A stretch of 64,000 nucleotides of DNA, taken from Pseudobutyrivibrio ruminis. GTDB taxonomy: Bacteria; Bacillota; Clostridia; Lachnospirales; Lachnospiraceae. Position numbers and translations under genes: made by a program. Position 1 is the first letter of the stretch; each line of letters starts with the position of its first letter. The DNA lies in NCBI GenBank assembly GCA_015057315.1, contig SVER01000002.1, forward strand, positions 1-64,000. Direction: 5' to 3'. The notes beneath the pieces were generated by a model that saw only the letters and a program-made list of their open reading frames with translations, did not search any database and was not told the origin of the DNA. Below, piece after piece: positions 6,569 through 24,368 of this stretch.

Positions 6569-6586
6569 CAATGGCAATTAAATAGT

Positions 6587-6694
6587 ATCTTCAGGGCAGG
6601 GTGTGATTCCCTACCGGTGGTATAGCCCACGAGCCGCAAGGCATGATTCGGTGTGATTCCGAAGCCGACAGTATAGTCTGGATGAAAGAAGATA
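6587..6694 (+). ncRNA. FMN riboswitch (RFN element)
   Basis: The conserved RFN blocks are all present in order: ATCTTCAGGGCAGGGTG, then CCCTACCGGTGG with AGCCCACGAGCC, then GATTCGGTGTGATTCCG, AGCCGACAGT and GTCTGGATGAAAGAAGAT closing the P1 stem. This aptamer binds FMN and switches off riboflavin synthesis or transport genes. Here it precedes ribD, with terminator hairpins between the aptamer and the gene, so control is probably by transcription attenuation. Confidence 0.97.
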
Positions 6695-6717
6695 TGTGAT
6701 TTATCAATGGATTATTA

Positions 6718-19202: not shown

Positions 19203-19871
19203 ATGGCTTTAATTTATTTAATTGAGGATGATGCAAGTATCAGGGAAATAGAAGAGTATGCACTTAAAAATGCAGGCTATGAAGTGGCAACCTTTGAAAA
19301 GGCTGGCTCTTTTTTCAACGCCCTTGAAGATATAATGCCTGATTTAATCGTACTAGATGTTATGCTACCTGATGAAAACGGACTTGACATTGTAAAGCAG
19401 CTACGTGGAAGCTCCATAACAAAAGCACTCCCTGTAATCATGGTCACTGCCAAGACAAGCGAACTTGATTTAGTCAAGGGACTTGAAAATGGAGCAGACG
19501 ACTATATTAAGAAACCATTTTCTGTACTGGAATTTATCTCAAGAGTAAAAGCTATGCTTCGCCGCACCTTAGAAGATGATGTAAAAAAGCTGGAATTAGA
19601 TGAACTGCTCATAGACAAAGAACGCCACGAGGTAAAAATCTCAGACACCATAATCAATCTAACCTACAAGGAATACGAACTCTTATATTACCTAACCCTT
19701 AACAGAGGCATCGTCCTTAGGCGTGACCAAATAATGGAACGTATCTGGGGCATAGACTACGAAGGAGAATCCAGAACCCTGGACATGCACATCAAAACCC
19801 TCCGCCAAAAGCTTGGCACCTTCGGCTCCCGCATCCGCACCGTACGAAATGTAGGCTACGTGATTGAATAA
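19203..19871 (+). CDS. OmpR/PhoB-type response regulator
   Basis: 222 residues. The receiver domain (1-120) has the acidic pair EDD at 8-10, the phosphoacceptor in LIVLDVMLPDENG (about D52), T in MVTAKTS and K104-105 in DYIKKPFS. The C-terminal winged helix (130-222) has the OmpR signature LTYKEYELLYYLTLNRG and SRTLDMHIKTLRQKLG with TVRNVGYVIE at the end. It should bind DNA as a dimer when phosphorylated. Normally a histidine kinase follows such a gene; here none is found, and a 564-bp inverted repeat starts at the stop codon. The start has AAAAGGAGGAATAC. It is therefore an orphan in this window. Confidence 0.95.
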   Translation: MALIYLIEDDASIREIEEYALKNAGYEVATFEKAGSFFNALEDIMPDLIVLDVMLPDENGLDIVKQLRGSSITKALPVIMVTAKTSELDLVKGLENGADDYIKKPFSVLEFISRVKAMLRRTLEDDVKKLELDELLIDKERHEVKISDTIINLTYKEYELLYYLTLNRGIVLRRDQIMERIWGIDYEGESRTLDMHIKTLRQKLGTFGSRIRTVRNVGYVIE

Positions 19872-20434
19872 ATGTGCCCGCCAAATGCTCACCCTGTATG
19901 TCTTGCTAATGACACAGTCGAAGAATTACTGATTTTCTAAATGCCACACTCGCATCCCCTATTACACGTGTTCTTTCAAGGTTTGACAATTCTGTCGGCA
20001 CTGTATGTATCTCGCAGACACCCTAAGCCTAAAGAAATAGCAGTGGCGGCAATATTAGTATTAATTGCATGATTTTGTAATGAGCCTAGTAGAATCTTAA
20101 AGCAGTTTTTGAATGTTTTCATATGGGCTGCCACGGACGGCAGCCCAAGGCGGATAGCGAAATGGACTGAGCTTGAAGCCGGTAGGAAAACATACAAAAA
20201 CTGCTTTTAATTCTACTTGGCGAATGTAATATGAATGCAATTAATACTAATATTGCCGCCAATGCTATTAAGTAACCTAACAAGTGTCTGCGAGATACAT
20301 ACAGTGCCTTCGAATAGTCAAAGCCGTGAAAGGACACGTGATGTATGCTCGCTTGTGGCATTAAGAAAATCAGCAATTCTTCTCCAATGATGCCACTATC
20401 AAGACATACAGGGTGAGCATTTGGCGGGCACATT
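19871..20434. repeat. Giant imperfect inverted repeat (element A, 564 bp)
   Basis: The outer 33 bases (from TGTGCCCGCCAAATGC) are perfectly mirrored at the other end, and the arms continue as blocks of perfect complementarity broken by loops of nearly equal size on both sides, for about 250 bp per arm. The apex holds a hairpin GGGCTGCC-acgga-C-GGCAGCCC and a second branch closed by GGC/GCC. The inner part (about 20078-20232) is homologous to that of element B at 24077-24229. It starts in the stop codon of the response regulator. The arms can be translated outside-in to related peptides (MCPPNAHPVCL, ALYVSRRH), but only the minus-strand copy is open. There is no T run at the end. Confidence 0.9.
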
Positions 20435-20658
20435 GCACTGCTAGTAGAGGCTGGCCCTGTGCAGTATGTTGCGTAGATTCACTTCTAAATCCACGTACAT
20501 AATTTATGCAGGCCTGTGAATGGTGGTTTGGGGGCTTGCAAAATTTTGAGAAATATATTAGTATGCTTTTGGGTTTAGGTCATCGCTATCGTAGATAGTG
20601 GTGACCTTTTTATGTTTAGGTTTGACGCTCATTAATTTATGGAAATGAGGTCAGAGAT
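20435..20658 (+). other. Non-coding spacer with terminator before the GH31 gene
   Basis: ATTCAC near 20478 and GTGAAT near 20516 make a weak stem. At 20578-20606, GGTCATCGCTATC-gta-GATAGTGGTGACC is followed by TTTTTATG, a good intrinsic terminator or attenuator 46 bases before the GH31 start. No clear promoter is seen after it, so it may attenuate transcription into the GH31 gene. Confidence 0.65.
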
Positions 20659-24000: not shown

Positions 24001-24004
24001 AACA

Positions 24005-24299
24005 GGTAGCAAGGGGACATACAAAAGTTTGGAAAGCATTTGTATTAGGGGAGATATATAGTTACCCCATTTGCTTTGGAATGAGCTTACAAAAATAAAA
24101 GCAGGTTTTGAAATATATAGGCATGGGCCGCTAGGATGGCGGCCCAAGTGCGTAAGCAACAGGACGTTGCATCGAGCACGGTGCCTATATATTCAAAACC
24201 TGCTTTTTAATTTTTGTTAGCGAATGTAATAGTAACTGGGGTAACTATATATCTCCCCTAATGCAAATGCGTTGAAGAATATCCAGTCCCCTTGCTGCC
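24005..24299. repeat. Giant imperfect inverted repeat (element B, 295 bp)
   Basis: GGTAGCAAGGGGAC at the left pairs with GTCCCCTTGCTGCC at the right, then an internal loop, a perfect 24-bp stem (starting AGGGGAGATATATAG on the left), another loop, and AAAGCAGGTTTTGA with its complement. The apex has the hairpin GGGCCGC-taggatg-GCGGCCC followed by a GTGC...GCAC branch with an inner GCAAC/GTTGC stem, i.e. a three-way junction. The inner 150 bases are clearly related to element A (shared ATTACATTCGC, AATTAAAA, GCAG, CTTGGGC words read on the minus strand). It starts four bases after the lacI-type gene stop. No T run follows. Confidence 0.9.
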
Positions 24300-24368
24300 C
24301 GTTGTTGTATAAATCTTCCAAAAAATTCCTCTGGCTTTTATTGATTACGGCGAAAAGAAAATTGGTGC

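Follow-up and report, generated by a model that had tools for sequence, protein, structure and literature searches.

The palindrome at 19871–20526 of the window (the whole stretch of 64,000 nt of Pseudobutyrivibrio ruminis DNA that was analysed) probably belongs to a family of dispersed, non-autonomous palindromes, MITE-like in kind, that occur in Pseudobutyrivibrio-type Lachnospiraceae; the arms of these elements would be homogenised and their core flipped. The element is demonstrably multi-copy, is present at some and absent from other orthologous sites, and has a conserved apex and, in the inner arms, conserved asymmetric loop positions; at several orthologous sites the assemblies have the apex inverted with respect to the flanking DNA. 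What has been found is a known RNA motif, TwoAYGGAY, in a setting that none of the literature consulted describes, namely a giant MITE-like palindrome that exceeds the usual MITE in size and structure, its arms changing in concert and its head able to invert. In what follows, G000 is the window's own genome (3.42 Mb, 97 contigs), other G numbers are relatives and L numbers are loci. The features concerned are these:

19203–19871, plus strand: response regulator with winged-helix output (PF00072, 1.5e-24; PF00486, 1.7e-23); the host gene upstream, outside the element.
19871–20526, no strand: copy 1 of the palindromic element in its present state, 656 bp, without the left outer arm; right end set by comparison with G006.
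19871–20073, no strand: surviving left arm of copy 1, pairing with 20232–20434 (203 nt on each side).
20074–20231, plus strand: apex of copy 1, RF01731 TwoAYGGAY, loops ACGGAC and AUGGAC; 61.7 bits, gathering score 43, E 8e-08.
20232–20434, no strand: right arm of copy 1, pairing with the left arm.
20435–20526, no strand: right outer arm of copy 1, ending in CCTGTGAATGGTGG, partnerless here; the partner lies in G006 between the response-regulator stop codon and the inverted repeat.
24001–24303, no strand: copy 2, a short-armed element downstream of a LacI gene, with inverted repeats 24001–24018/24286–24303 and 24033–24100/24206–24273.
24075–24232, plus strand: apex of copy 2, RF01731; 60.1 bits.

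The sequence-only reading had described 19871–20434 as a palindrome with ends perfectly complementary for about 33 bases and arms of about 250 bp pairing in blocks between loops of similar size, folding as a rod of some 560 nt with a branched apex, far larger than a terminator and without a T run, and starting in the stop codon of the response regulator. As geometry all of this is borne out. The predicted fold is a single 564-nt rod with a minimum free energy (MFE) of -311.1 kcal/mol, compared with a mean of -140.6 (sd 6.4) for 100 dinucleotide shuffles, none of which did as well (z -26.5), and its base consists of 35 uninterrupted pairs. An inverted-repeat search returned five pairs; the end arms (19871–19925/20380–20434, 55 nt) match at 85%, and the arms also hold a perfect 25-nt block (19997–20021/20284–20308). 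The final base of the stop codon that closes the ORF at 19203–19871 is also the first base of the left arm, and the apex carries two hairpins on one stem, the same arrangement as in RF01731. The palindrome is genuine, but it is neither unique nor a new RNA.

The sequence-only reading had proposed a comparison with Rfam, in which a match to a known RNA family was to count as refutation, and such a match was obtained. A cmscan search of the whole window matched RF01731 twice, at 20074–20231 (61.7 bits) and 24075–24232 (60.1 bits), both matches spanning the full 168-position model and exceeding the gathering score of 43; since the apex thus belongs to a known family, the palindrome cannot be regarded as a new RNA. 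In copy 2 both of the AYGGAY-type loops read AGGA, so that GGA is kept but not Y. In the table of Weinberg et al. 2010 (PMC2864571), TwoAYGGAY is classed as a probable RNA without a cis-regulatory role, from human gut, gamma-Proteobacteria and Clostridiales. The Rfam model covers the tip alone, whereas the element adds arms that, in 29 of 39 genus loci, reach at least 200 nt on each side; its copies are dispersed, with empty sites and inversions. Within the literature consulted on TwoAYGGAY there is no mention of mobility or of such long arms, nor any description of the motif in a mobile giant palindrome. An orphan Rfam family without known function thereby gains a physical context: it crowns a large, apparently mobile palindrome whose arms vary freely while remaining paired, whose unpaired positions are conserved and whose centre has flipped between sister species. 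Concrete tests become possible of what moves the element, what reads the tip, and whether it is read as RNA or as DNA.

As to numbers, the window's own genome has 13 RF01731 matches, every one of them over the cut-off, while 12 relatives re-counted with all candidates scored gave 49, 20, 14, 10, 10, 8, 7, 4, 4, 1, 1 and 0. Taking the own genome together with 60 relatives, the motif is present in 29 of 61; in an even sample of the phylum, where just six candidates were scored per genome, it was found at E 0.001 in 50 of 398 genomes, 34 of these over the cut-off. Thirteen named genomes reached through relatives of the response regulator comprised four with the motif (Lachnospiraceae AC2012 with 25 matches, Pseudobutyrivibrio sp. 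YE44 with 11, Pseudobutyrivibrio MAG22 with three and NC2004 with one) and nine lacking it. All element copies examined are intergenic. Their spacing may be close: at L015/L265 (G036:C47:139778-140356) two TwoAYGGAY elements lie back to back in opposite orientation, and AC2012 (G460) has several close pairs inside single intergenic regions. In two AC2012 loci (L321 and L323) the short ORFs between paired elements repeatedly read MVE.../HHVLWWR..., which, from the translations alone, suggests repeated TGGTGG-like DNA units. A phage or plasmid origin was also considered, but a 601-nt query had no match in phage and plasmid collections; a 17-mer did occur in 15 viral contigs, but the 122 kb of these that were examined gave no Rfam match over the gathering score, and the 17-mer matches were therefore taken as chance.

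Nor does the element form a unit with the response regulator. Orthologues without it were sought for three sites (that of the window, L002 and L005) and exist for each; it is a dispersed repeat and not tied to that gene. At the window site in G024, the response-regulator orthologue is separated by about 32 nt from the conserved leader of a GH31 gene, the element being absent; in G008 and G016 other sequence follows the regulator, again with no element within the stretches examined, and in G015, G018 and G028 the regulator itself is also absent. The L002 site is filled in G000 and G019, and empty in G006, G008, G015 and G024. Its empty form in G006 reads TTATAAAATAAATGGTTAT, while in the filled form a TTGTTACTATTCACGG end is flanked by ATAA on either side; judged against G006, the empty site is nearly precise, with a possible 4-bp ATAA target duplication. 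At the window site and L005 no target-site duplication is recognisable. L005 lacks the element in G008, G015 and G024, although in G015 there are some 25 extra nt, including a CTATTCA resembling the element end that may be a remnant, and in G006 the outer arms are kept and the core is gone. Arms without a called core, the apex having been deleted, were also seen at L228 (G000:C60:26338-26830), in G006:C280, and at L330, L333 and L335 of G022.

Comparison with the sister genome G006 also accounts for the contact with the stop codon. There the inverted repeat lies further from the stop codon, by 97 nt according to the BLAST gap and by 99 nt on a direct count, and the extra sequence is the partner of window 20435–20526, which places the right limit of copy 1 at about 20526, beyond the 564-nt repeat. 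The window copy is accordingly best read as one from whose left outer arm about 98 nt have gone, a loss that it shares with G019 and because of which it touches the stop codon. All this bears on a reading in which the palindrome is a cis-acting 3' element of the response-regulator mRNA (a giant terminator, a stabiliser or an RNase III site). Such a reading would draw on the start at the stop codon, and on the many copies that lie near gene 3' ends, where, however, a distance of 0 can mean that an ORF has been cut at the element boundary. Against it, there is no element after the regulator orthologue in G024, G008 or G016 within the stretches examined, the stop-codon contact arose through the loss just described, there is no T run, and convergent flanks are just mildly enriched: 51 copies have 10 convergent, 34 tandem and 7 divergent pairs of flanking genes, as compared with 49, 325 and 46 for 420 control spacers. 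As the main reading, a terminator or regulator-specific 3' element is ruled out by the empty orthologous sites, and a cis-acting role at this one gene seems very improbable indeed.

To return to the mobile palindrome, full copies in the own genome have terminal inverted repeats of about CTATTCACGGACAT; the motif CTATTMACRGNCAT stands at both ends of four G000 copies, which measure 731–744 bp between these motifs, and at one end of a core-less copy, while the window copy has kept the right end alone, as CCTGTGAATGGTGG. These repeats, together with insertion polymorphism at orthologous sites, are what one would look for in a MITE. Like MITEs and other palindromic repeats (Correia, ERIC, RUP, BOX; as treated in PMC10969869), the element is non-coding, intergenic and multi-copy, with terminal inverted repeats, stable stem-loops and decay in size. 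On the other hand, MITEs typically total less than 500 bp according to the same source, a limit that the 731–744 bp of the element exceed, and the element further differs in being palindromic from end to end, with arms private to each copy and a conserved, branched, RNA-like apex.

A mover was sought through these ends. In G000 the exact end motif has nine matches, all of them ends of palindromic elements and none pointing to an autonomous partner. In G022 it has 29, of which 19 are within 300 nt of a core; the other ten comprise four positions in arms without a called core, three positions inside long ORFs and three intergenic positions without a match to seven query copies, and the Pfam matches of ten neighbouring proteins include no transposase. 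No transposase partner with exactly these ends came to light in either G000 or G022. A gene carried between paired copies was likewise considered for AC2012, but no common ORF was apparent by eye, nor was an ORF common to element neighbourhoods apparent by eye in other genomes.

With 30 nt of the core stem as anchor, the arms paired better than all five of their mononucleotide shuffles did at 70 of 71 loci, the sole exception (L159) being at a contig edge. Nine of the 13 own copies, like the 29 of 39 genus loci mentioned above, pair over at least 200 nt per side; beyond the genus, pairing covers 101 nt per side or less in 30 of 32 loci. For the inner arms (70–140 nt from the core, in G000) the median local score was 58.5 between copies and 32 within a copy; for the outer arms (170–260 nt from the core) it was 60 within a copy, compared with 9 between copies and 7 for shuffled sequence. 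For the outer arms, a copy's own other arm outscored the corresponding arm of every other copy in all nine long-armed G000 copies, and in 30 of 47 copies in G022 (17 otherwise). The inner arms are common to the whole family; the outer ones hardly recur from copy to copy, yet within a copy they complement each other. In an alignment of 15 genomes, one copy each, 40 variable columns were paired in at least 80% of copies, where 200 partner shuffles gave a mean of 0.09 and a maximum of 3; a further 35 columns were conserved and complementary, and seven conserved but non-complementary. It follows that the helices vary yet stay paired, while certain unpaired positions are kept. Differences between left and right arms recur, for instance TTTTCTAAATG as against TTTTCTTAATG, although some genomes lack them.

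Inversion of the apex was assessed in 11 locus pairs from six orthologous sites in G000, G019 and G006. Relative to the flanks, the apex is inverted at three of the six (L007, L008 and L013; six pairs, four of which have both flanks in a single contig) and not inverted at L001, L002 and L012 (five pairs). Several orthologous contigs in G006 and G019 end within the palindrome, and L003, L004, L005, L006 and L010, where contigs break in the core, were left out of the count; outside it, L010 looks inverted in G019 and not in G006, and L004 looks not inverted in G019. At the window site, too, the apex seems to be inverted in G019 and not in G006, as read from contigs that end in the core. For L009 and L011 no orthologous element was among the loci retrieved. 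At the L006 site in G019 (L240/L243) a left-type arm is present at both junctions with the flank contigs, as would be expected if the sequenced population had both orientations. A practical warning follows from all this, in that such palindromes break assemblies and can mimic new regulatory RNAs beside any gene.

As for mechanism, movement would depend on a trans-acting transposase or recombinase, with either the ends or the folded element as its substrate, and template switching or recombination between the arms would keep them complementary and flip the centre. Template switching from one arm of an inverted repeat to the other is reported to make the arms alike and to invert spacers (PMC8604942), which fits both the arm homogenisation and the core inversion seen here. 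Plain template switching would also erase conserved mismatches, however, so that selection must be added; this would preserve the apex and the unpaired positions, presumably because they are recognised as a folded strand, whether RNA or single-stranded DNA. For the window copy itself, minus one outer arm, no host function need be assumed.

Whether recognition would be of RNA or of DNA may be approached through mismatches, as selection for RNA pairing should favour G:U. Requiring two Watson-Crick pairs on each side, the 85 genus copies gave 15 G:U and 9 A:C in the core stem P1, 118 and 79 in the inner arms, and 71 and 99 in the outer arms; the 32 distant loci gave 11 and 5 in P1, and 16 and 23 in the inner arms. 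A count with three flanking pairs, over all groups and with two loci misoriented, came to 135 G:U against 122 A:C (p 0.45), and a terminator control, itself weak, to 22 and 14 in 52 hairpins. Since the outer arms have no excess of G:U over A:C, they look like the product of copying at the DNA level. The modest excess in the inner arms leaves room for selection on RNA, and the idea that arm pairing is wholly without an RNA signal was dropped on account of it.

These counts weigh in different ways on two readings. In one, it is as a folded single strand of DNA that the element would be processed, much as integron attC sites and IS200/IS605 ends are, the conserved mismatches marking the strand and the helices being free to vary so long as they remain Watson-Crick. 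Integron attC sites are several times shorter than the palindromic element, which differs from them also in having terminal inverted repeats, and IS200/IS605 elements are not known to have terminal inverted repeats or target duplication. The likeness to attC lies in variable self-complementary arms, a conserved structure and unpaired bases that mark the strand (PMC2727003). This reading would account for covarying helices alongside seven conserved mismatched columns, for outer arms with no G:U preference, and for a left/right asymmetry that keeps step with the apex throughout the 15 genomes aligned, one copy from each. It sits poorly with full copies that have terminal inverted repeats and with the one site suggesting a target duplication, features unlike IS200/IS605, while the inner-arm excess (118:79) and better folding of the plus-strand apex point to RNA; on balance we regard it as unlikely.

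In the other, the element is a structured RNA serving the host: TwoAYGGAY rods, amplified in number, would titrate CsrA through their GGA loops, following the proposal in PMC4333381 that TwoAYGGAY binds CsrA. Two of the properties that one would want in a CsrA-binding sRNA were found, namely hairpin loops that carry GGA and a host that encodes CsrA. Among 31 distant cores, 29 have GGA in at least two apex hairpin loops and two have it in one; among 85 genus cores the figures are 41 and 44, and no core is without; the single loop of about half of the genus cores counts against titration. CsrA is encoded in the own genome, and within the sample of 398 it occurs in 48 of 50 RF01731-positive genomes (the exceptions being G225 and G427) as against 244 of 348 negative ones, a co-occurrence that is suggestive but for which the statistics (Fisher p 2.3e-5) ignore kinship and only six candidates were scored per genome. 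Of the distinct cores, 71 of 82 from the genus and 27 of 31 distant ones have an apex that folds better as plus-strand RNA, although RF01731 matches are picked by a plus-strand model, so that such folding is favoured in the sample. RNAalifold consensus energies prefer the plus strand in just two of four groups (G000, -58.5 vs -52.3; other genus copies, -55.8 vs -49.6), and not in G022 (-58.7 vs -59.0) or the distant group (-24.7 vs -26.2, with L042 reversed). The plus-strand core structures do contain more G:U than A:C (20:4, 48:11, 15:3 and 26:19, one group with L042 reversed), but they were chosen with G:U allowed, and the strand-neutral counts are 15:9 in P1 and 71:99 in the outer arms. Nor is there any bias in orientation with respect to tandem flanking genes (sense to antisense 5:5 in G000 and 12:12 in G022), and copy number runs from 0 to 49 within one genus. 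Titration as the main explanation is therefore improbable, even though plus-strand folding of the apex and the inner-arm G:U excess (118:79) give hints of an RNA function beyond that of a mobile palindrome.

A bolder version of the mobile-palindrome reading, which we consider distinctly unlikely as it stands, would make TwoAYGGAY the recognition head of a hairpin that moves via a folded single strand, and not primarily a regulatory RNA. Every hop would then carry or rebuild a self-complementary outer arm, and the head, by inverting reversibly, would switch which of the neighbouring transcripts displays the GGA loops, as putative CsrA-binding sites.

Some other features of the window may be recorded briefly. 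In the GH31 leader, at 20571–20620, there is a hairpin GGTCATCGCTATC...GATAGTGGTGACC followed by TTTTT, which has no Rfam match in the cmscan of the window but is also found, with small changes, in G024, G015, G018 and G028; it looks like a conserved attenuator or leader terminator. Positions 1–74 match the end of a group II intron (RF00029) at 40.9 bits, the match being clipped by the window edge, and an FMN riboswitch (RF00050, 116.7 bits) lies at 6583–6697.
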